From positions 124,001-188,000 of the forward strand of contig JANSYS010000005.1 in NCBI GenBank assembly GCA_024742275.1: a stretch of 64,000 bases of DNA, given 5' to 3'. Below are positions 7,663 through 17,221 of this stretch, piece after piece. Both the position numbers and the translations under genes were made by a program. Position 1 is the first letter of the stretch. Every line of letters begins with the position of its first letter. Source of the DNA: Alphaproteobacteria bacterium. Lineage in GTDB: Bacteria; Pseudomonadota; Alphaproteobacteria; Thalassobaculales; Thalassobaculaceae. The notes beneath the pieces were generated by a model, which saw only the letters and a program-made list of their open reading frames with translations, was not told the DNA's origin and made no database searches.

Positions 7663-8844
7663 TCACTCGGGCGTCAGGCGCACCGCGCCAAGAGCCGCCA
7701 GAAGGCCAGCGATGGCAGCCGCGAGCATCAGCATCAATAGCCTGCTCGGAGAGGGATCATCGGCCAGGGCGTAGCCGGTAACGGTCGTCATCACCGCCCC
7801 TCCGGCGAGGGTCATCGCGCCGTTGATTCCGGCCGCGCTGCCGGCCAGCCTGGGCTTGACGGAAAGGGCCCCGGCATTGCTGTTCGGCATTGTGAGCCCG
7901 TTTCCCAACCCGACGAAGATGGTGGAGCCGAAGAAGAACAACGGGTGAATCAGCCCCGAAGCCAACGCTGCAAGCCCAGCCGTGAGGCCGCCGCAGGCCA
8001 CCAGACGCCCAAGGATCATAACGATTCTCGATGCCAGATGCCTGCCGAGCCGCCCCGATAGGTAGCTTCCGGTCATGAACCCTCCGGTGATGCTGCCGAC
8101 GGCTATCCCGAGTTCGGCCGTCGTCGTTCCGAACACCGATGTCGCGACCAGCGGAGCGCCGGTGATGAAGATGAAGAACGCCCCGGTCGAGAATGTCGTA
8201 CACCCCACGTAGCACCAAAACGTGGGAGCCTGGAGGAGAGCCGTCAGGGTCTCGGGCTCCTTCCCCGAAGCGTCGTGTCGCGACGCCAGGGTTTCCCCGA
8301 GATCGCGCCACGTCAGGTACAGAAGTCCCGCTCCGGCAAGGGCGTAGAACAGGAAAATCGATCTCCAGCCGAACGCGGCATCGAGCAGGCTGCCCAGCAT
8401 CGGGCCGAGCATCGGCGCAAGCGCCATGGCCATACTGATCTTGCCGATCAGCCGGGCGACCTCGGCCCCGTCGTTCGTGTCCCGAACGATCGCAAGCGAC
8501 AGGACCGAGCCGACGACCACGCTGGCCTGAAGCATCCTGAACACCAGGAGGGTCACCACGTCCTGAGCGACGGCGGTTACGAAAGACGCCGCGGCGAAAA
8601 CCAATAGAGCGCACAGGACGACCGGCCTGCGCCCCACCCGGTCGGCCAAGGGTCCCGCCGCCAACTGAACGACCGCCGTGACAGCGAGATAGCCGCCGAC
8701 TGTCAGACTGATCACCGCGTAATCCGCCGTCAGATCCGTGGCCATATTGGCCAGCGACGGCACGATGGCGTTCAAGGAGAGCAGGGACAGTGCCGAGAGC
8801 AGGATCAGGGTCGTCAGAGACGGGGGCGAGCCGGGTTTGAGCAT
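7663..8844 (-). CDS. Bcr/CflA-type MFS multidrug exporter
   Basis: A 393-residue major facilitator of the drug:H+ antiporter (12 TM) family. The loop 2-3 signature GPLADRVGRRPV is seen, and motif C-like LGPMLGSLLDAAFGWRSIFLF lies in the region of helices 4-6, as in Bcr/CflA proteins. Met at 8844 is chosen because it begins MLKPGSPPSLTTLILLSAL, a typical cytoplasmic lead into helix 1. A longer frame to 8934 would run through a strong hairpin (8874-8894) that looks like a leader terminator. Substrate unknown. Confidence 0.85.
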   Translation of the reverse strand: MLKPGSPPSLTTLILLSALSLLSLNAIVPSLANMATDLTADYAVISLTVGGYLAVTAVVQLAAGPLADRVGRRPVVLCALLVFAAASFVTAVAQDVVTLLVFRMLQASVVVGSVLSLAIVRDTNDGAEVARLIGKISMAMALAPMLGPMLGSLLDAAFGWRSIFLFYALAGAGLLYLTWRDLGETLASRHDASGKEPETLTALLQAPTFWCYVGCTTFSTGAFFIFITGAPLVATSVFGTTTAELGIAVGSITGGFMTGSYLSGRLGRHLASRIVMILGRLVACGGLTAGLAALASGLIHPLFFFGSTIFVGLGNGLTMPNSNAGALSVKPRLAGSAAGINGAMTLAGGAVMTTVTGYALADDPSPSRLLMLMLAAAIAGLLAALGAVRLTPE

Positions 8845-9184
8845 GTCGGTACCGAGCTTCCGGAAAATCAAAACCCCCGAACGGGGTTCGGGGGCGCATC
8901 TCAGAGTGGGTCGGTTTCCGCTACCGAACGACACCCCAGGTGGCGCCTACGACGGTGGTTGCGCATACACTAACAGGGTAGGTCATTCGGGCTCTCCTCG
9001 GACCAAGCGTAGCCGCAGTCGCACGGCGCGACAACGAACGATAAAGCCCGGCGCAGGGCACAGCCCTCCAATCCTCTTTGCCGACCCGCGCTTCGGTACT
9101 ATCTATCGCTTCGGGTTCAGCTGTTTCGGAGGGTCGCGCAACCAAGGCACGGAGAACGTGTCGTCAGGTTCCGTCGCTCACATC
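8845..9184. other. Intergenic region between MFS exporter and TPR-methyltransferase
   Basis: 340 bases between two divergent genes. Apart from the hairpin at 8874-8894 no further gene is supported. An open frame runs through it in the frame of the downstream methyltransferase (from 8738), but its composition is Arg/Ser-rich and it overlaps the MFS coding region, so I treat it as non-coding. It should hold the promoters of both genes, but I could not fix them. Confidence 0.5.
8865..8894 (-). promoter_or_regulatory. Attenuator-like hairpin in the leader of the MFS gene
   Basis: A perfect 9-bp inverted repeat CCCCCGAAC / GTTCGGGGG (8874-8882 and 8886-8894, loop GGG). On the minus strand it is followed by TTTTGATTTT. 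This has the form of an intrinsic terminator, yet it sits only about 30 bases before the start codon of the exporter, so it may act as an attenuator in the 5' leader. Confidence 0.55.
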
Positions 9185-10153
9185 ATGACAACCAGAGATA
9201 TCAGAGCCGACCGCCGCGTCGGATACGCGCGTATGCTCATTGCCGAAGGCGATCTGCCGGGCGCGCTGTCGCTTCTTGAGCAAACGCTGGAGTTGGCGCC
9301 GGACTGGCCAGATCTGCTGATGCTGCTCGGCGAGACCCAGGCGAAGCTCGGGCAGCGGGACGACGCCATCGAGAGCTTCCGCCGATACCTCTCCGTCAGC
9401 CACGACGACCGGCACGGTGCGATCCTGCATCTCGCCCTGCTGGGCGCCGCGCCGATTCCCGACGAACCTCTTGCACCGTACATCGAAGCTCTGTTCGACG
9501 ATTTCTCGGATCGGTTCGAGCGGTCCCTGCTTCAGTTGTTGGACTACCGCGGGCCGGCGTTGATAGCCGACGCCATTGACCATGAGACAGGCGGGCTTGG
9601 CGCGGTTCTGGACCTCGGCTGCGGAACAGGTCTGTCCGGCGAGCCGCTGCGCCGACACTGCAACTGGCTGGAGGGCGTGGACCTCTCCTCCGGCATGCTC
9701 GAGAAGGCCCGTGCCAAAGGCATCTACGACGCGCTGCATCAGGCCGATATCGTCGACTTTCTGGCGAAGCCGGTGCGGCGCTACGACCGGATCGTGGCTG
9801 GAGACGTTTTGAACTACATGGGAGCGTTGGACTCGGTCATGTCCGGCATCGCCGGAGCGCTGAAACCGACCGGCCGGGCGGTGATCACGGTCGAGGCACT
9901 TGAGGCCCATGGCGGCGGCGGCTGCGATGGGATGCGTCTGCTGCCGACCCTGCGCTTCGCTCACTCGGCCGAGTACGTGCGTGCCGCTGCGGCGGCGGCC
10001 GGCCTGTCCACCGCGGCACAACGCACGGAAGCGCTCCGCCGCGAGGCCGGACAACCGCTTTCCTGCCACGTCTTTACTCTGCTGCCAGGCGCTATCCCGG
10101 CCGAACCCAATCTCGGTCCCGCTATCGACCCGAAGGCCCGGCCGAGCGCTTGA
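9185..10153 (+). CDS. TPR-repeat SAM-dependent methyltransferase
   Basis: A 322-residue fusion. Residues about 10-70 form two TPR-like repeats (YARMLIAEGDLPGALSLLEQ, then LGETQAKLGQRDDAIESFRR). Residues 135-300 form a class I methyltransferase with SAM motif I VLDLGCGTGLSG at 141-152, the acidic post-I region EGVDLSSGMLEKAR and motif IV-like RIVAGDVLNYMG. This arrangement is seen in a family of TPR methyltransferases in alphaproteobacteria whose substrates are not defined. Start at 9185 chosen because it begins the TPR region; a much longer open frame upstream is not credible. The 3' end overlaps the convergent lyase gene by 32 bases. Confidence 0.82.
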   Translation: MTTRDIRADRRVGYARMLIAEGDLPGALSLLEQTLELAPDWPDLLMLLGETQAKLGQRDDAIESFRRYLSVSHDDRHGAILHLALLGAAPIPDEPLAPYIEALFDDFSDRFERSLLQLLDYRGPALIADAIDHETGGLGAVLDLGCGTGLSGEPLRRHCNWLEGVDLSSGMLEKARAKGIYDALHQADIVDFLAKPVRRYDRIVAGDVLNYMGALDSVMSGIAGALKPTGRAVITVEALEAHGGGGCDGMRLLPTLRFAHSAEYVRAAAAAAGLSTAAQRTEALRREAGQPLSCHVFTLLPGAIPAEPNLGPAIDPKARPSA

Positions 10154-11042
10154 GCCGCTCGGCCACTCCCACGATGCGTTCGGCCCGGTCGACGATGGGT
10201 TTGTCGATCATCTTGCCCTTATAGGCGACCGCCCCTTTGCCCTCGGCCAAGGCCTCGCGGAAGACGGCGAGCAGCCCCTCCGCATGGGCAATCTCCTGCT
10301 CCGACGGTGTGAAGGCGGCGTTCAGGACCGGGATCTGCGCCGGGTGGATTCCCATCCCGCCCTCCGAGCCGTTGCGCCGTCCCTGCTCCGCGCCACGCCG
10401 GAACGCGTCGAGATCGGTGAATTCGGCGATCGAGCCGGGATAGCCGAGCGGGATCACCCCCGCCTCGCGCGCCGCCAGCCGCACCATCGCGTCATAGGGA
10501 TCGAGAACGGCGGGATCGGGCTCCGGCAGACCGAGATCGGCCGCCATATCCTCGCCGCCGAGGGTGATTGCCGCCACACGCGGGCTCGCCTTGGCGATCG
10601 CCCGGGCTTCATGCACGCCCTTGGCCGTCTCGACCAGCACGGCATAGCGCACATGGCCGGCGGGCAGGCCGCGCTCGGCTTCCAGCTCGCCGACCACCTC
10701 GTCGATCGCCAGGATATGATCCGCGCCGTCCACTTTCGGCAGGCAAAGCGCGTCGAGGCCGGGGATCACGGCGGCCTCCAGATCGGCGATGGCCAGACGC
10801 CAGGGTCGGTTGATGCGGACCATCACCTCCACGGTTCCCGCCCCGGCGACGGTAGCGATGGCGCCGGCGAGCGCGGCCCGGCCATCGGCTTTGCGGTCCG
10901 GCGGGATCGAATCCTCGACGTCGAGGATGACCGCGTCGGCACCACGCTCTGCCGCTTTGGCGACGAAACGCTCCGCGTTCGCCGGCACATAGAGCAGAGA
11001 GCGCCACAACGGGGCGGGCCGGGAGTACGCGGCGGTCATCAT
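10122..11042 (-). CDS. HpcH/HpaI aldolase / citrate lyase beta-like CoA lyase
   Basis: A 306-residue CitE-like protein of the HpcH/HpaI TIM-barrel superfamily (malyl-CoA, citramalyl-CoA and related lyases). Motifs are RSLLYVPANAERFV near the N-terminus, DVEDSIPPDRK at 41-51, RINRP at 76-80, VETAKGVHEARAIA with metal-ligand Glu138, and LGGEDMAADLG with Asp165 as second ligand. It begins inside the stop of the CoA-transferase gene (ATGA overlap at 11039-11042), so the two are translationally coupled. A thioester formed by the transferase may be cleaved here. The start could be either of two adjacent ATGs. Confidence 0.88.
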   Translation of the reverse strand: MMTAAYSRPAPLWRSLLYVPANAERFVAKAAERGADAVILDVEDSIPPDRKADGRAALAGAIATVAGAGTVEVMVRINRPWRLAIADLEAAVIPGLDALCLPKVDGADHILAIDEVVGELEAERGLPAGHVRYAVLVETAKGVHEARAIAKASPRVAAITLGGEDMAADLGLPEPDPAVLDPYDAMVRLAAREAGVIPLGYPGSIAEFTDLDAFRRGAEQGRRNGSEGGMGIHPAQIPVLNAAFTPSEQEIAHAEGLLAVFREALAEGKGAVAYKGKMIDKPIVDRAERIVGVAERLKRSAGPSGR

Positions 11043-12247
11043 ATCAGTCCTTTCGCGCGCAACGCCTCGGGGTCTTGACCAAGGGCGGTCCAGATCTCCG
11101 CGTTGTGCTCTCCAAGCTCGGGGGCGGGCCTGCGAAGTTGCGCCGGACTGCCCGACATGCGCGGGATCACGTTGTGCATGGCGATCCGGCCGATATCGGC
11201 ATCCGGCATGGAGACGATGGCCTCGCGATCCCGCGGGTAGGGATGCTGAGCCAGTTCCCCGACATCGGGCACGGCGCCCACGGTAACGCCAGCCTTCTCG
11301 AAGATCTCCAGATTCTCCGCCTGTGTCCGCTCGGCCATGAAGGCTCCGACGATGGGATCCAGTTCGTGCCTGTTGGCGACCCTGTCCGTGTTGGTTCGGA
11401 ACTTGGGATCGTCGATCAGATCCTCGCGGCCGATCGCGCGCAGCAGCCGCTCCGCCATCGACTGCATCGACGCGCTGAGAGCGACGTACTTGCCGTCCTT
11501 ACACCGGTAGACGTTGCGCGGCGCCGACTGGTTGGACAGCGACCCGGTTCGTGGCGGGACCGTGCCGGTCAGATCGTAGTTCGCGACGATCGGTCCGAGC
11601 ATCGAATGGATCGGTTCGAACAGGGTCAGATCGATCACCTGCCCCGGCGCCTTCTTCACTTCGATCTCGCGGATCGCCACCATGGCGGAGAAAGCGCCGT
11701 AGAGGCCGGCGATCATGTCCGCGAGCGCCAAAGGCGGCAGCACGGGAGGACGGTCCGCGAAGCCGTTCATGGCGGCGAAACCGCTCATCGCCTCGACCAG
11801 GCTGCCGAATCCCGGGCGATGGGACCACATGCCGTCCTGACCCCAGCCAGAGATCCGGATGATGATAAGGTTCGGATTCCGCTCGAGCAGCACCTCCGGA
11901 CCGATACCCATCTTCTCCAGCGTGCCCGGCTTGAAGTTTTCCACCAGCACCCGCGCGGTAGCGGCCAGCTCGAGCATGAGGGCGACCGCGCCCTCCTGAC
12001 GGAAATTCAGCGTCACGCTCTTTTTGTTGCGGCAGAGCACCTTCCAGTGGGTCGTCACCCCGGCGGTGTTCCAGGCCCGAAGATCGTCGCCGCTTCCGGG
12101 CTTCTCGATCTTGATGACCTCGGCCCCGTGATCGGCCAGCAAATGGGTCACCGCATTGCCGGCGATCAGCCTGGACATGTCGAGCACGCGCACCCCGTCC
12201 AAGGCGCCGGGAACGTCGCCGACCCATTCCTTCTCGACGCCACTCAT
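11039..12247 (-). CDS. Class III (CaiB/BaiF) acyl-CoA transferase
   Basis: A 402-residue family III CoA-transferase that moves CoA between carboxylic acids through an aspartyl-CoA anhydride. The N-terminal LDGVRVLDMSRLIAG and the segment GAEVIKIEKPGSGDDLR are typical. The catalytic Asp is most likely Asp177 in LADMIAGLYGAF. The start at 12247 (MSGVEKEW) follows GGAGGAAACG. The longer frame to 12355 would overlap the enolase gene. It overlaps the CoA lyase by 4 bases. CoA donor and acceptor cannot be read from sequence; mesaconate, itaconate or citramalate-type acids are possible because of the lyase partner. Confidence 0.9.
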   Translation of the reverse strand: MSGVEKEWVGDVPGALDGVRVLDMSRLIAGNAVTHLLADHGAEVIKIEKPGSGDDLRAWNTAGVTTHWKVLCRNKKSVTLNFRQEGAVALMLELAATARVLVENFKPGTLEKMGIGPEVLLERNPNLIIIRISGWGQDGMWSHRPGFGSLVEAMSGFAAMNGFADRPPVLPPLALADMIAGLYGAFSAMVAIREIEVKKAPGQVIDLTLFEPIHSMLGPIVANYDLTGTVPPRTGSLSNQSAPRNVYRCKDGKYVALSASMQSMAERLLRAIGREDLIDDPKFRTNTDRVANRHELDPIVGAFMAERTQAENLEIFEKAGVTVGAVPDVGELAQHPYPRDREAIVSMPDADIGRIAMHNVIPRMSGSPAQLRRPAPELGEHNAEIWTALGQDPEALRAKGLI

Positions 12248-12326
12248 GCGTCCGTTTCCTCCAGATGCCGACCACGTCACCGACGGAGAACCCGCCAGCC
12301 TCGGTCGTTTTGTTGGCCTATGTTTT

Positions 12327-13427
12327 TCATCCCCGGCCCCGACGGTCCAGTGCATACCTTTCGACCGCGCCCGGATCGAAGCGGAAGCCCATGCCCGGAA
12401 CGTCGGGGATCAGCAGATCGCCATCCACCATCTCGACCTGCTCGGCGAAGAGCGGGCGGAACCAGGGCATGTGCTCGGCGTAGCTGACATTGGAGACCGC
12501 CCCGCAGAGCTGCAGACAGTGCTCGGTGAACAGATGCGGGCTGACCGGCACGTCGTAGGAGGCGGCCATATTGGCAACCCGGATCCACTCGGTGACCCCG
12601 CCGACCCGTTCCAGATCGGGCATCAGCACATCGGCCGACTTGCGCTCCAGCATGTCGCGGAACCCGTAGCGGCCGTACTCGGTCTCGCCGCTGGCGATCG
12701 GTGTATCGATCTCGGCGGCGACCCGGGCCGACCCCTCCAGGTCGTAGGCCTGGACCGGCTCCTCGAACCAGACGAGACCGAAGTCCTCGAGCCGCCGGCC
12801 GAGCCGGATGGCATGGGAGACGGACAGCCCCTGATTGGCGTCGGCCATCAGCCCGACATGCGGCCCTATGACGTCGCGCACGGCCGCGACCCGGTCGATA
12901 TCCTCGCCGATATCCGGCTTGCCGATGCGGATCTTCATCGCTTTGAAGCCCTGATCGAGGAAGTCTCGCGCCTGCGCCTGCAATTCGTCGATCGTCATCG
13001 ACGCCCAGAGCCCCCCGGAGGCGTAGGCCGGCACCCGGTCTCGCCGACGTCCCAGCAGCCGCGCGACCGAGGCGCCCAGAGACTGGCCGAGAATGTCCCA
13101 GCACGCCCAGTCGATGGCGGCGATGCCGAACAGCGAAACGCCCTTGTGGCCGAGGAAGTTGATCTCGCCCCACATCTCGTCGAACCGGGCGGCCGTATCG
13201 CGCGGGTCCCGGCCGATCATCCGCTCGCCCAGCATCCGGGTGATCGACTCCAGCACGGGCAGCCGATGGACGCCGATCGCCCAGAGATAGCTTTCGCCGG
13301 TGATCCCTTCGTCGGTGTCGACCCAGACCAGGAGTCCGGCAACGCCCTCGATGCGGTGGATAGCGGTACCGATGGGCTTGTCGAAAGGGATCTCGACGGC
13401 GCGGGTCCGCAGGCCCGTGATCTTCAT
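12327..13427 (-). CDS. Mandelate racemase/muconate lactonizing enzyme family protein
   Basis: A 366-residue enolase-superfamily enzyme of the mandelate racemase subgroup. Putative metal ligands are Asp196 (MADANQG), Glu222 (WFEEPV) and Glu248 (SGETEYG). The acid/base residues are Lys165 in KAMKIRIG and the His298/Asp271 dyad (SPHLF, PDLERVGG). This numbering is almost the same as in mandelate racemase. The second residue of the KxK pair is Arg167, giving KxR. Members usually dehydrate or epimerise sugar acids or racemise alpha-hydroxy acids. It lies 79 bases before the CoA-transferase and 11 bases after the SDR, so it is probably part of one catabolic operon. Confidence 0.9.
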   Translation of the reverse strand: MKITGLRTRAVEIPFDKPIGTAIHRIEGVAGLLVWVDTDEGITGESYLWAIGVHRLPVLESITRMLGERMIGRDPRDTAARFDEMWGEINFLGHKGVSLFGIAAIDWACWDILGQSLGASVARLLGRRRDRVPAYASGGLWASMTIDELQAQARDFLDQGFKAMKIRIGKPDIGEDIDRVAAVRDVIGPHVGLMADANQGLSVSHAIRLGRRLEDFGLVWFEEPVQAYDLEGSARVAAEIDTPIASGETEYGRYGFRDMLERKSADVLMPDLERVGGVTEWIRVANMAASYDVPVSPHLFTEHCLQLCGAVSNVSYAEHMPWFRPLFAEQVEMVDGDLLIPDVPGMGFRFDPGAVERYALDRRGRG

Positions 13428-13438
13428 CGCCCGTCTCC

Positions 13439-14158
13439 TCAGACGTTCTGGCTGGCGGGCAGCACCATCACCCGGGGAATCAGAACGGAGCGGGGCTGCT
13501 CGACCGCGAAGACCACGGCTCGGGCGACATCGGCCGGCGTCAACGGTTGCGGTACATTCTGGCTCACCTCCGGGCGCACGGCGTAGTCCCGGTGCAGGTC
13601 GGTGCGGACCAACCCCGGCTCGACCACCGCGACCCGGACGCCAGACCCAGCCAGTTCCATGCGCAGCGACTCCGCAAGCGCCTCGACCGCGTATTTGGTC
13701 GCCGCGTAAGCGCCGGCATTGGGCCGGGTCTTGGTCCCCAGGACGGAGCCGGTGAAAAGCAGATCCCCGCTGCCTGCCGCCTTCATGTGCCGGAGGACGG
13801 TGTAGGCGAAGCGGAACGTGGCGTCGATATTGACCCGCAGCATGTCGGACATCGCGTCCAGATCGATCTCCCCAACCGGACCGCTGGCGATCAGACCGGC
13901 ATTGGCATACGCGATGTCTACCCGCCCGAACCGCTCCATGGCCAGGTCGAGCAGGGCTTCGGGCGTATCGGGATCGGCAATATCGCCGGCCAGCACGGCG
14001 CAGTGCGGGAGGCGGGCCGCATGGGCCTCCAGCAGCTCCCGACGACGGCCGTGCAGGACGAGCTTCACGCCACGCTCCGACAGCGCTTCGGCAGCGGCCA
14101 AGCCGATACCGCTGGTGGCACCGGTGACGACGGCGACCTTGCCCTCAAGATCGTTCAT
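13439..14158 (-). CDS. SDR family oxidoreductase
   Basis: A 239-residue classical short-chain dehydrogenase. The cofactor loop TGATSGIG is at residues 12-19, NAG is at 86-88, and the catalytic set Ser138, Tyr151 and Lys155 (YAATK) is intact. His36-Gly-Arg-Arg-Arg after beta 2 suggests NADP preference. It could oxidise or reduce a hydroxyl group of the same acid handled by the enolase-type enzyme downstream. Its start overlaps the end of the Cys-rich gene by 14 bases. Confidence 0.9.
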   Translation of the reverse strand: MNDLEGKVAVVTGATSGIGLAAAEALSERGVKLVLHGRRRELLEAHAARLPHCAVLAGDIADPDTPEALLDLAMERFGRVDIAYANAGLIASGPVGEIDLDAMSDMLRVNIDATFRFAYTVLRHMKAAGSGDLLFTGSVLGTKTRPNAGAYAATKYAVEALAESLRMELAGSGVRVAVVEPGLVRTDLHRDYAVRPEVSQNVPQPLTPADVARAVVFAVEQPRSVLIPRVMVLPASQNV

Positions 14159-14708
14159 GGCGCTCCTCCTCGTCCAGACTTCCAGCCGTATCGGCTTCCT
14201 CGAGCGGGGTCAGGATGGCTGAGATCAGAGCCTCGTGCCAACGCATGAACTGCGCCGTGTCGGCATCGATCTCCACCCGCCCCGTCCGGCGAAAAGCCTC
14301 GGCGGCGGGCTCGAGGCGGTCGGCGACCGCGTGGGCATCGTCGGAGCCCTCCCGGCGCAGGGCGACGATCAGCATGCGCAGCCGGGCGAGATCGCGGAAA
14401 CCGTCCAGATGGTGGTGCGCGGTCGCGACCATCGCCGGGGTCCAGGGTGCCCATTCCGCACGCATCCGGTCCGCCACCACGGGGCCCGCCCCGAAGCAGT
14501 CATAGGGTCGGCAGACGGTGAAGCCCGACGCCTCGAGCCGGTCGAAGACGGTGCAGCGGAAATCGGCGTCCAGGTGACGGCAGGCGGTGTCGCGCGGCTT
14601 GACCGCCGGAAAACCGGCGGACGGCTGATGCGCCAGCGCGATGCAGCACAGGCCGAAGCACCGCGTGCAGTCGGTCGGCCACTCGGGCGTGTCCGTGTCG
14701 CTCCCCAT
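14145..14708 (-). CDS. Cys-rich putative metal-binding protein
   Basis: A 187-residue protein with a cluster of Cys in the first 75 residues: DCTRCFGLCCIAL, then DTACRHL, FRCTVF and CRPYDCFGAG. The same Cys pattern heads some pentapeptide-repeat proteins of actinobacteria, but here no pentapeptide repeats follow. The rest is helical, with an HHHLDGF segment. It probably binds zinc or an iron-sulphur cluster. It sits between the dienelactone hydrolase and the SDR and overlaps the SDR start by 14 bases, so it is likely cotranscribed. Function unknown. Confidence 0.7.
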   Translation of the reverse strand: MGSDTDTPEWPTDCTRCFGLCCIALAHQPSAGFPAVKPRDTACRHLDADFRCTVFDRLEASGFTVCRPYDCFGAGPVVADRMRAEWAPWTPAMVATAHHHLDGFRDLARLRMLIVALRREGSDDAHAVADRLEPAAEAFRRTGRVEIDADTAQFMRWHEALISAILTPLEEADTAGSLDEEERHERS

Positions 14709-14770
14709 CCCGTGACTCTACGGCCGCGGAGCTGGGCAACGAACCGTTTTCCAGAGGTCGAGCGGCCCAA

Positions 14771-15439
14771 TCAGCCGATATGCTGCTTGAAGAACTCCAG
14801 AGTGCGCTCGCGGGCGATTTCGGCACTCTTCGGCTCGAAGCTGCCGCGGGCGTCACAGTTGAAACCGTGTCCCGCCGGATAGACATGCACCGGCAGGTCC
14901 AGATGTGCCTTGCGCAGCTTCTCGACCTCATCCATCGGGATGGCGTGGTCCTGCTCGCCGAAATGGAAGATCACCGGACATTTCGGCTGCAGATCGACCA
15001 AGCCACCGATACCGCCGCCATAGTAGCTGGACGCCACCGTGAAACCGTCGAGCTTGGTGGCGGACAGCCAAGTCATAGTGCCGCCCCAGCAGTAGCCGAC
15101 AACGCCGACCTTTCCGGCCGAACGCACGGCGTCGGCGGCGGCGGCGATGTCGAGCAGCGGATCGTCGTTGCCGACCTTGGCCCGGATCTCGCGGCCTTCG
15201 GTCACGTCGTCCTCGTCGTAGCCGAGTTCGATACCCGGCTTGTAGCGGTCGTACAGCGCCGGGCAGATCGCCAGATAACCGTCCTCGGCGAAACCGTCTG
15301 CAACACTCTTCATGTGGCTGTTGACGCCGAAAATCTCCTGGATCACCACCAGGCCACCCTTCGGTTTTCCGGACGGCTGGGCGAGGTAGGCGTCGAACGC
15401 GTGCCCGTCGGATGCCTTCAGCTTGAGCGTGTCGGCCAT
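14771..15439 (-). CDS. Dienelactone hydrolase family protein
   Basis: A 222-residue alpha/beta hydrolase. The triad fits dienelactone hydrolase: Cys117 in GYCWGG, Asp164 in GEQDHAIP and His191 in AGHGFNC, with Glu35 in VIQEIFG as the residue that controls the Cys. Family members hydrolyse lactones or small esters in the cytoplasm. The gene lies 23 bases after ychF and 62 bases before the Cys-rich gene on the same strand, so it can belong to either unit. Confidence 0.92.
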   Translation of the reverse strand: MADTLKLKASDGHAFDAYLAQPSGKPKGGLVVIQEIFGVNSHMKSVADGFAEDGYLAICPALYDRYKPGIELGYDEDDVTEGREIRAKVGNDDPLLDIAAAADAVRSAGKVGVVGYCWGGTMTWLSATKLDGFTVASSYYGGGIGGLVDLQPKCPVIFHFGEQDHAIPMDEVEKLRKAHLDLPVHVYPAGHGFNCDARGSFEPKSAEIARERTLEFFKQHIG

Positions 15440-15462: not shown

Positions 15463-16566
15463 TCAGACGTTGAAGCGGAAATGGAAGACGTCGCCATCCT
15501 GCACGACGTACTCGGAGCCTTCCACCCGCATCTTGCCGGCATCCTTGGCCCCCTGCTCGCCGCCGGTGGCGACATAGTCGTCGTAGGAGATCGTCTCCGC
15601 CCGGATGAAGCCGCGCTGGAAGTCGGTGTGGATCTCGCCCGCGGCCTCCGGCGCCTTGGCGCCGCGCCGCACCGTCCAGGCACGAGCCTCCTTCGGGCCG
15701 ACCGTGAAGAAGGTCAGCAGGTCGAGCAGTCTGTATCCGGCCCGTATCAACTTGGTAAGGCCAGGCTCGTCCAGCCCGAGGCTGTCGAGAAACTCGCGCT
15801 TCTCTTCGGGATCGGTAAGCTGGGCGATCTCGGCCTCGATGGCGGCCGAGATCACGACCGACTCAGCCCCCTCGGCTGCTGCCTTTTCCGCAACCTTGGC
15901 GGAGAGGGCGTTCCCGGACCCGGCGTTCTCCTCCTCGACGTTGCAGACGTAGAGGATCGGCTTCGCGGTCAGAAGCTGCATCTGCTTGAACAGGCGCGTC
16001 TCCTCCGCATCCAGGTCGGGCAGCATGGCCCGGGCCGGCTTCCCGTCGCGCAGCAGCTCGGCGACTTTCTGGGCGAGCGGCATCAGCGCCTTGGCTTCCT
16101 TGTCCTGCCCGCGCACACGTTTTTCCAGCGCCGGAATGCGCTTCTCGACGCTGTCCAAGTCGGCCAGCATCAGCTCGGTCTCCACGGTCTCGGCATCGCG
16201 GATCGGGTCGACTGACCCGTCGACATGCGTCACCTCGCCCTCAAAGCACCGAAGCACATGGATGATCGCGTGGGTCTCGCGGATGTTGGCGAGGAACTGG
16301 TTCCCGAGGCCCTCCCCCTTGCTGGCCCCCTTCACCAGTCCGGCGATATCCACGAACTCGATCTGGGTCGGCAGGATCTTCGCTGACTTGGCGATCTTGG
16401 CCAGGTCGTCAAGCCGCGGGTCCGGCACCGCAACCCGGCCGGTATTGGGCTCGATCGTGCAGAAGGGATAGTTCGCCGCCTCTGCCGCCGCGGTGGCGGT
16501 CAGCGCGTTGAAGAGCGTCGACTTGCCGACGTTCGGCAGGCCGACGATGCCGCAGTTGAAGCCCAT
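15463..16566 (-). CDS. ychF: Redox-regulated ATPase/GTPase YchF
   Basis: A 367-residue Obg-family NTPase (OLA1/YchF) that binds ribosomes and prefers ATP. It starts [17 protein letters not shown], with the P-loop at residues 9-17. NPVGR-like switch sequence [10 protein letters not shown] and [20 protein letters not shown] (G3) follow, and the C-terminal TGS domain ends with [15 protein letters not shown]. The start at 16566 matches the family; the frame continues to 16665 but that part overlaps pth. It follows pth by 4 bases, a common pairing. Confidence 0.97.
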
Positions 16567-16570
16567 GGGC

Positions 16571-17221
16571 TCACGCTCCGTCGCTGGCTGGAGGGTCTTT
16601 CGATACGTCGCTCGAACCGTCCGCGGCGGGTTTAGCCGGTTTCGGCGGCGGGGGGAACACGGCATGAGCCACCCGGCTCATGAACCGCGCCTCGTCGCCG
16701 CACACCAACTCCTCGACCTCCCGGGCGAGCGCGTCGATCAAGGTTTCGAGCCAAGCGTTCTTCTCCGCCTTCGCGAAGTCGGACAGCACGTAGCTGTGAA
16801 CCTTGCTCTTGTCGCCCGGATGGCCGATCCCGAGCCTTACCCGGCGGTAGTCCTTGTCGATGTGCCGATCGATGTCGCGGATGCCGTTGTGACCGCCGGC
16901 GCCGCCGCCGCGCTTCAGCCGGATCTTACCGGGAGTCAGGTCGAGCTCGTCGTAGAACACGGTGACAGCGTCGACCGGCAGTTTGAAGAATCGCACCGCC
17001 TCGCCGACCGAGCGGCCACTTTCGTTCATGTAGGTCATCGGTTTCAGCACCATGACCTTCTCCCCGGCGATCACGCCCTCGCTGGCCAATCCCTGGAAAC
17101 GCGCACGCCACGGCCCGAAAGCATGGCGGCGGGCGATCTCCTCCACCGCCATGAAGCCGATATTGTGGCGGTTGCCCTCGTATTTCGGACCGGGGTTACC
17201 GAGGCCGACGAACAGCAGCAT
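16571..17221 (-). CDS. pth: Peptidyl-tRNA hydrolase
   Basis: A 216-residue enzyme that releases peptides from peptidyl-tRNA dropped by the ribosome. N-terminal [21 protein letters not shown] contains the catalytic His19-type residue. The segments [24 protein letters not shown] and [13 protein letters not shown] are all present. The last 25 residues are Pro/Ser-rich and not conserved in the family. It lies between rplY and ychF on the same strand. Confidence 0.97.

Follow-up and report, generated by a model that had tools for sequence, protein, structure and literature searches.

A six-gene region of Thalassobaculum as a genus-level assembly of modules around a putative CoA-transferase–lyase pair

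Do six closely spaced genes of different enzyme families, found in an alphaproteobacterium of the family Thalassobaculaceae, make up one dedicated pathway, or are they separate units that have come to lie side by side? The host is a marine bacterium. A sequence-only reading of the window (the whole stretch of 64,000 nucleotides analysed) had described the genes as a compact minus-strand cluster, and an ORF check of the window found all six frames open, intact and at the positions that it had given (Table 1). The families that it had named were also borne out, five of the six proteins matching theirs in a Pfam profile search and the sixth being confirmed as Cys-rich by its eight Cys. The six genes probably serve organic-acid breakdown.

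Table 1. Genes of the region and its housekeeping flank, with the evidence for their naming.
Feature	Length (aa)	Position	Strand	Evidence
CitE-like (HpcH/HpaI) acyl-CoA lyase	306	10122..11042	-	HpcH_HpaI PF03328, 121 bits
Class III (CaiB/BaiF) CoA-transferase	402	11039..12247	-	CoA_transf_3 PF02515, 367 bits
Enolase-superfamily, mandelate-racemase-subgroup enzyme (MR)	366	12327..13427	-	MR_MLE N and C; PF13378, 220 bits
SDR oxidoreductase	239	13439..14158	-	PF00106, 158 bits; TGxxxGIG, Y151-x3-K155
Cys-rich protein	187	14145..14708	-	8 Cys; CxxCxxxCC near N-terminus
DLH-family alpha/beta hydrolase	222	14771..15439	-	PF01738, 154 bits; C117, D164, H191
YchF-type GTPase (flank)		15463..16566	-	Named by recognition from sequence
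Peptidyl-tRNA hydrolase (beyond YchF)		16571-17221		Named by recognition from sequence

By their coordinates, the ychF and hydrolase (DLH) genes are 23 bp apart and the DLH and Cys-rich genes 62 bp, the Cys-rich and SDR genes overlap by 14 bp, and 11 bp separate the SDR gene from the enolase gene. The spacing of 79 bp between the enolase and transferase genes is counted from the transferase ATG at 12247, which is preceded by GGAGGAA; the longest ORF begins at 12355. The ATGA coupling of transferase and lyase noted earlier was confirmed as an overlap of stop and start codons at 11042-11039. Since a scan of the locus returned no promoter-like sites, and two terminator-like sites against 2.0 expected, i.e. 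not above chance, one transcript for the six genes is possible.

Conservation was followed through 36 genomes of the family, tallying the best match per genome and counting two genes as linked when they lay less than 5 kb apart (on different contigs, as not linked). Of these assemblies, 20/36 reach 90% completeness with contamination of 5% or less, so gene absences are soft. All six genes occur in the same order, each pair less than 5 kb apart, in four Thalassobaculum genomes (G000, G025, G026 and G027), with protein identities of 73-95%, and this shared order is beyond chance. Two further loci, L039 (T. litoreum DSM 18839) and L040, carry the same order; judged by their identities they are probably the genomes G025 and G026 again. 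The genes just outside the six (MFS, TPR-methyltransferase) are ordered differently among L039, L040 and the window. In two 1.5-Mb assemblies labelled as the same genus (G023 and G024), no match to any of the six genes passed the search thresholds.

Across the family, the six genes fall into three modules: the hydrolase; the Cys-rich protein, SDR and enolase; and the transferase with the lyase. Transferase and lyase were linked in 27/27 family genomes having both, and enolase and SDR within 5 kb in 10/10. Homologs of the Cys-rich protein occurred in 7/36 family genomes, the gene lying within 5 kb of the enolase gene in 6/6 and of the SDR gene in 6/6 genomes having both. The sequence-only reading had made its cluster depend on the genes being kept together in relatives, and beyond the genus they are not: among family genomes having both genes, enolase and transferase were linked within 5 kb in 0/16 and DLH and transferase in 0/19, and none of the 36 genomes other than the four of the one genus showed linkage across modules at this distance. 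Furthermore, seven family genomes have a transferase with no close enolase homolog (five of g9, G021 and G032) and four an enolase with no close transferase (G005, G011, G031 and G033), several of these assemblies being incomplete. The compactness proposed earlier thus holds as a fixed order within Thalassobaculum but not outside it. This linkage table rules out a single conserved six-gene cluster; the modules stand together at the level of the genus, an assembly that, within the searched family, is seen in one genus only.

The transferase is assigned to class III (CaiB/BaiF) by a PF02515 score above the cut-off and a conserved Asp, D177, which is present in 52/52 homologs and is the putative nucleophile by analogy with the Frc family. 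Its best NCBIfam match was succinate-glutarate CoA-transferase (231 bits vs a cut-off of 750), and no malate/citramalate CoA-transferase model was among its seven NCBIfam matches. The lyase scored 165 bits of 443 for citE and 130 of 375 for RipC, and neither enzyme reached an NCBIfam equivalog model. Lyase residues D41, E43, R76, E138, D165 and D280 were invariant in 45/45 homologs and D44 was present in 41/45. When aligned to RsMCL (PDB 4l9y), R76, E43, D44, E138, D165 and D280 fill the positions of the catalytic and Mg residues that an excerpt of PMC3832036 names as Arg76, Glu44/Asp45, Glu141/Asp168 and Asp299. As far as that excerpt describes the malyl-CoA lyase/CitE-like superfamily, our lyase shares its catalytic and Mg-ligand residues, with weak overall similarity; the excerpt also gives Asp at position 299 as the mark of lyases and Glu as that of the thioesterase group (PMC3832036). 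A malyl-CoA thioesterase was rejected on the Asp that our lyase has at this position. The pair most likely loads a hydroxy acid with CoA and cleaves the product.

Outside Thalassobaculum the pair recurs across Alphaproteobacteria. A close transferase was found in 30/387 sampled genomes of the class. The lyase adjoined it in 4/4 family members among these 30, and outside the family it lay beside the transferase on the same strand in 19/26 loci, directly downstream in 18 of them and between two transferases in L239. There was no lyase match near the transferase homolog in 7/26 loci; in one of these, L227, the contig runs on for only 1.8 kb. Eight plasmid regions, hand-picked from matches carrying annotation, had both genes in 8/8, directly adjacent in 7/8, with TRAP, TTT or 2-hydroxycarboxylate (2HCT) transporters beside them in 5/8; a further plasmid region, L287, which carries no annotation, has its lyase 1.1 kb from the transferase and on the opposite strand. 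The carboxylate transporters, the conserved residues and the family linkage lend support to the earlier suggestion of a malyl/citramalyl-CoA-type route, which we retain as a putative assignment. Since the pair also adjoins varied enzymes (beta-eliminating-lyase family, D-2-hydroxyacid dehydrogenase, crotonase and zinc dehydrogenase), its substrates may differ between hosts. A PF01212 protein was considered as a common feeder of the pair and rejected; it precedes the pair in 14/20 family loci, a count that includes a mere 104-aa fragment in L191, and gave no match at E 1e-40 in Thalassobaculum, g6, g8 and g11. Neighbour lists came from a coding-frame heuristic rather than a gene finder, which misses or mis-frames genes (e.g. 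in L180, L182 and L270), and counts were therefore taken from tblastn or genome hits unless a cluster count is named.

In the enolase, K165-x-R167, D196/E222/E248, D271-H298 and E318 were invariant in 31/31 homologs of at least 45% identity, so that all 31 carry the Asp-His dyad and the three acidic metal ligands that mark the mandelate racemase subgroup. The KxK motif, the second base of racemases, is absent, K165-x-R167 standing there in every homolog. The enolase shares its family, metal ligands and Asp-His dyad with L-talarate/galactarate dehydratase and mandelate racemase (PDB 2og9, 2pp0 and 1mdl) and differs in having K-x-R vs K-x-K in the aligned 2og9 and 2pp0. The sugar acid or hydroxy acid suggested earlier as its input is plausible by these family matches, but the nearest NCBIfam model, talarate/galactarate dehydratase, was matched at 260 bits vs a cut-off of 500. 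The Cys-rich protein had no Pfam match at E 0.01 and no NCBIfam match at E 0.001, and its predicted fold is of low confidence (pLDDT 61).

In this genus-level assembly of modules, we consider it rather probable that the pair activates and cleaves a 2-hydroxy-dicarboxylate of the malate or citramalate type. We infer that the CoA-transferase would pass CoA, most likely from succinyl-CoA, to the carboxylate of such an acid, and that the CitE-like lyase would then cleave the CoA ester in a Mg-dependent retro-Claisen reaction, releasing a 2-oxo acid, for instance pyruvate or glyoxylate, together with acetyl-CoA or another short acyl-CoA. Since there is no hydratase among the six genes, the acid would have to come already hydroxylated. 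A two-step logic of this kind, with no hydratase, belongs to the succinyl-CoA:malate/citramalate CoA-transferases and malyl-/citramalyl-CoA lyases (EC 2.8.3.20/2.8.3.22 and 4.1.3.46/4.1.3.25), here compared by their description in an excerpt of PMC8307300. The enolase-SDR-Cys module would most likely take a sugar acid or hydroxy acid through a dehydration and a redox step, and in Thalassobaculum it may supply the pair. DLH, an old neighbour of pth-ychF, would have at most an optional role.

The alternative that survives best is one dedicated pathway of six (or five) genes, in which DLH would open a lactone, the enolase dehydrate the acid and the SDR supply a redox step, yielding a 2-hydroxy-diacid for the pair to split. 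The order fixed in four Thalassobaculum genomes, though the outer genes are rearranged, is consistent with this, and so is the co-occurrence of enolase and pair elsewhere. Outside the family, 10/14 enolase genomes also had the transferase, vs 1/24 for an MFS control (a single control gene, at an E limit of 1e-70 vs 1e-90 for the enolase and 1e-110 for the transferase); the other four were three of f90 and one of f50. All ten have the lyase beside the transferase, and the enolase was found in 10/19 genomes with transferase and lyase vs 0/7 with a transferase lacking the lyase (uncorrected Fisher p 0.02), these tests ignoring phylogeny and the ten positive genomes representing four families. In addition, a DLH-transferase-lyase set occurs in 4/4 genomes of genus g67, with no YchF match nearby in three, and L271 carries a run of DLH, SDR, ADH, enolase, TRAP, transferase and lyase, with matches at corresponding distances in L270. 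These observations speak against dismissing a wider pathway altogether. The enzymes of L270 and L271 are, however, only 29-33% identical to those of our locus, hence of the same families rather than evident orthologs; the likeness was spotted after the fact, and the other g66 loci, L240 and L269, have no DLH, SDR or enolase-type matches near the pair. Together with the separation of the modules outside the genus (16/16 and 19/19 family genomes) and the seven transferase-only and four enolase-only family genomes, this makes a dedicated pathway unlikely, if still worth keeping in view. We are likewise doubtful of a hydratase-free pathway for sugar or hydroxy acids in which DLH would open a lactone, a KxR enolase dehydrate the acid and the SDR carry out a redox step, the resulting 2-hydroxy-diacid passing to an alphaproteobacterial CoA-transferase/CoA-ester lyase pair of a distinct kind. 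If it were true, sugar-acid carbon would exit by cleavage of a CoA ester rather than through a 2-keto-3-deoxy acid aldolase or dehydrogenase, and the pair, taken by itself, would be a plug-in module, so far uncharacterised, whose feeder enzymes and transporters change from host to host.

A further possibility is that functionally unconnected metabolic genes were inserted, at the level of the genus, after the housekeeping ychF-DLH genes and are neighbours by chance. The flank gives this some footing. PTH, YchF and DLH lie on one locus in 7/10 fetched family DLH loci, adjoining one another in L274, L277, L279 and L281 and with YchF and DLH separated by 1.7-2.7 kb in L272, L275 and L278; no YchF match was found in L273 (18 kb) or in L276 and L280, both short contigs. 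The pth-ychF-DLH order is thus the older synteny, and linkage across modules is confined to one genus of the family. DLH itself, which has the PF01738 match and Cys/Asp/His motif residues of its family, is possibly a lactonase or esterase, its sole NCBIfam match being YghX (81 bits vs a cut-off of 460). Chance would leave unexplained the fixed gene pairs (27/27 and 10/10), the co-occurrence of enolase and pair, and the sets of g67, and we regard it as distinctly unlikely.

Finally, the pair recalls the itaconate/methylsuccinate cluster (ict-ich-ccl plus mcd and msi) of Cupriavidus necator and Pseudomonas aeruginosa, in which, by the excerpt of PMC12290011, the genes of a CoA-transferase and a CitE-like lyase are likewise directly linked, and whose succinyl-CoA-driven activation and cleavage of a 2-hydroxy-diacyl-CoA we propose here as well. 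Unlike that cluster, the six genes include no hydratase, acyl-CoA dehydrogenase or MmgE/PrpD; Pfam found no match to MaoC, the type of itaconyl/mesaconyl-CoA hydratase, in any of the six proteins (0/6). Against methylsuccinate-layout clusters of Tistrella, Variovorax and Pseudosulfitobacter, used in place of the characterised Ict/Ccl (PA0882, C. necator), our transferase was 26-31% and our lyase 30-32% identical, vs 57-62% and 58-68% for Variovorax and Pseudosulfitobacter against Tistrella. A point in favour of an Ict-Ccl-type pair is that one homologous to ours (56%/50%) stands in L236 directly before an MmgE-MaoC-acyl-CoA dehydrogenase-MaoC-transferase-lyase run. That our pair is an Ict-Ccl of the itaconate/methylsuccinate type with its hydratase encoded elsewhere is very improbable, an Ict-Ccl-type identity being rejected on the identity of ~30% and on the two kinds standing side by side in L236. 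A second C. necator lyase homolog, left unassigned in the same excerpt, adjoins a CoA-transferase with no itaconyl-CoA hydratase (PMC12290011), a layout that our pair shares. A literature search found no report of mandelate racemase, CoA-transferase and malyl-CoA lyase together, only off-topic records for Thalassobaculum with CoA-transferase, and, in titles and abstract openings, no description of the six-gene set.

The lesson of this region is that what looks like a pathway of six genes has been put together from modules. The transferase-lyase pair is widespread in Alphaproteobacteria, where it stands beside varied carboxylate transporters and feeder enzymes without a curated functional model, and its substrate, once found, would annotate many catabolic operons together.

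All six minus-strand genes of the block are real and intact, and the coupling of the last two that the sequence-only reading had described is present, with the TGA of the class III CoA-transferase overlapping the ATG of the CitE-like lyase as ATGA. Pfam assigns five of the six proteins (DLH, SDR, MR_MLE, CoA_transf_3 and HpcH_HpaI). The sixth, a 187-aa Cys-rich protein, had no match in Pfam or NCBIfam within the limits applied; it may resemble the N-terminal portion of certain pentapeptide-repeat proteins from actinobacteria. Among the matches listed, no other protein reached its NCBIfam cut-off, the best being talarate/galactarate dehydratase for the mandelate-racemase-type enolase (MR; 260 of 500), succinate-glutarate CoA-transferase for the transferase (231 of 750) and CitE for the lyase (165 of 443), with the SDR scoring 25 of 217. 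The host genome is 4.7 Mb, and its enolase is 92% identical to that of Thalassobaculum litoreum DSM 18839, the nearest named relative by this protein. The block is constant among Thalassobaculum loci, and the TPR-methyltransferase and MFS genes downstream of it differ in order.

Coordinates of features in the window and in compared loci (L-numbers)
Feature	Position	Strand	Remark
Six ORFs	10122-15439	minus	ORF scan of the window
Cys-rich protein	14145-14708	minus	CxxCxxxCC, 8 Cys, no family model; linked with SDR and MR across several genera
Transferase start codon	12247	minus	most likely start
TPR-methyltransferase and MFS transporter	7663-10153		order compared with L039 and L040
PF01212 gene or D-2-hydroxyacid dehydrogenase	L193:9500-11900; L179:9500-11750	minus	same slot, overlapping the transferase start by ATGA
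DLH-to-lyase run	L271:7300-18200	minus	one opposite-strand gene among same-strand members
Two transferase-lyase pairs	L236:8792-17137		side by side
~280-aa protein	L045:7115-7966		no Pfam match

The idea that the six genes are kept together in relatives failed when 36 Thalassobaculaceae genomes were searched with each protein, taking as linked the best matches per genome lying on the same contig less than 5 kb apart. Linkage was complete within modules, wherever both genes were present: transferase-lyase in 27/27 genomes, MR-SDR in 10/10, and MR-Cys-rich and SDR-Cys-rich each in 6/6. Across modules it was found in four genomes of one genus only (MR-transferase 4/20, MR-DLH 4/19, transferase-DLH 4/23). 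Genes on separate contigs were counted as unlinked; on one contig, DLH and transferase lie ~87 kb (G029) and ~102 kb (G028) apart, and ~2.3 Mb apart in the single-contig genome G016. The transferase occurs with no close enolase in seven genomes (G016-G021, G032), and the enolase with no close transferase in four (G005, G011, G031, G033). The six-gene region is a genus-level composite. A genome search found none of the six genes in G023 and G024, single-contig 1.5-Mb genomes listed as 99% complete and labelled as the same genus as the 4.7-5.6-Mb Thalassobaculum; these represent either a reduced lineage or a misassignment.

Across 20 transferase loci from other genera of the family, a gene that we take to be sigma-32-like lies nearby in 17, and the transferase is preceded by a PF01212 beta-eliminating-lyase family gene in 14 (one member profiled; a fragment only in L191) or by a D-2-hydroxyacid dehydrogenase in two (one profiled). 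The PF01212 gene had no Thalassobaculum match at E 1e-40. The DLH shares a locus with the housekeeping genes pth and ychF in seven of ten loci compared.

Among 387 alphaproteobacterial genomes (E up to 1e-110 for the transferase and 1e-90 for MR), the transferase occurs in 30, MR in 17 and both in 13. Outside the family, 10 of 14 MR genomes carry the transferase against 0.96 expected, a figure that ignores kinship; for the control, the window's MFS transporter gene (27 genomes), it was 1 of 24. These ten genomes belong to four families (f56, f57, f66, f81), and the MR-only genomes to f90 (three) and f50 (one). A same-strand lyase adjoins the transferase in 19 of 26 loci outside the family, and MR was present in 10 of these 19 genomes versus none of the seven lacking that lyase. 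In genus g67, a DLH directly precedes the pair in 4/4 genomes (49-51% identical to the window's in the three compared, L237, L266 and L268), with pth and ychF also nearby in one (L237). In another family of the class, L271 has a run that draws on the enzyme families of the window's block. It consists of DLH, SDR, zinc alcohol dehydrogenase, an MR-type dehydratase, TRAP genes (DctP identified by profile, plus putative permeases), transferase and lyase. L270 has matches to these proteins at corresponding distances; the DLH, SDR and MR of both share only 29-33% identity with those of the window, and the two other loci of the genus (L240, L269) gave no such matches near the pair.

On plasmids, 188 records matched the transferase and 132 the lyase. 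Both genes were present in all eight annotated regions examined (with one intervening gene in Roseomonas); of two unannotated regions, L286 has a lyase match (37%) ~1.2 kb after the transferase and L287 one (44%) 1.1 kb off on the opposite strand. The pair adjoins TRAP transporters in Skermanella and Ancylobacter, TTT transporters in Thalassospira and Roseomonas, and a 2-hydroxycarboxylate transporter in Methylobacterium, and the last three regions have other ABC systems. Aldehyde and zinc dehydrogenases, a hydroxyacid dehydrogenase and RraA also occur alongside the pair. Methylsuccinate-layout clusters (Tistrella, Pseudosulfitobacter, Variovorax) also have adjacent transferase and lyase genes, but of another kind, 26-32% identical to the window's. 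The Cupriavidus metallidurans stretch contains a transferase of that kind, and no lyase was found within it. L236 holds one window-like pair (56%/50%) and one of the methylsuccinate type, separated by MmgE/PrpD, two MaoC proteins and an acyl-CoA dehydrogenase.

The enolase keeps its three metal ligands, Asp-His dyad and K165-x-R167 in 31/31 homologs. The talarate/galactarate dehydratases 2og9 and 2pp0 differ in having K-x-K here, and 3ugv has K-x-R. Since racemases of the mandelate racemase subgroup require the second Lys, the window enolase is more likely a one-base dehydratase or isomerase than a racemase. Of six matching plasmid records, the five examined pair enolase homologs (42-50%) with ABC transporters, some adding glyoxylate/hydroxypyruvate reductase, class II aldolase, SDRs or tautomerase; an FMN-dependent dehydrogenase lies upstream of the L066 homolog (53%), and in Azospirillum the homolog adjoins a class III transferase that is less closely related (34%). 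Such neighbourhoods are consistent with hydroxy- or sugar-acid catabolism, and to that extent the sugar or hydroxy acid input suggested earlier appears plausible. In 31 loci from alphaproteobacterial records, some of them titled SAR116, a ~280-aa protein family lies just upstream of the homolog in 11 (L043-L049, L051-L053, L063); in L043 the Cys-rich gene separates the two.

A search of open-access papers found no description of the six-gene set. Aligned with the R. sphaeroides malyl-CoA lyase chain (RsMCL), whose numbering is the paper's plus 21, an offset fitted from these matches, Asp42, Glu44, Asp45, Arg76, Glu141, Asp168 and Asp299 correspond to D41, E43, D44, R76, E138, D165 and D280 of the window lyase (roles as given in PMC3832036). 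All are invariant in 45 homologs except D44 (41/45), and transferase D177 is invariant in 52. The proposed likeness to a malyl/citramalyl-CoA pair is thus borne out at the level of residues. Since that chemistry is established and the catalytic residues are present, the transferase would convert an acyl-CoA donor and a hydroxy-diacid to a hydroxy-diacyl-CoA, which the lyase would split into an acyl-CoA and a 2-oxo acid. By analogy, we infer that the donor would be succinyl-CoA, since the itaconate enzymes of P. aeruginosa and C. necator use it according to PMC12290011. That study also describes, in C. necator, a lyase homolog adjacent to a CoA-transferase and without itaconyl-CoA hydratase, and assigns it no function. 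The window's pair may be fed by the enolase-SDR module, judging from co-occurrence and the module's Thalassobaculum position rather than from conserved linkage. It is the transferase-lyase pair that is the part worth assaying.
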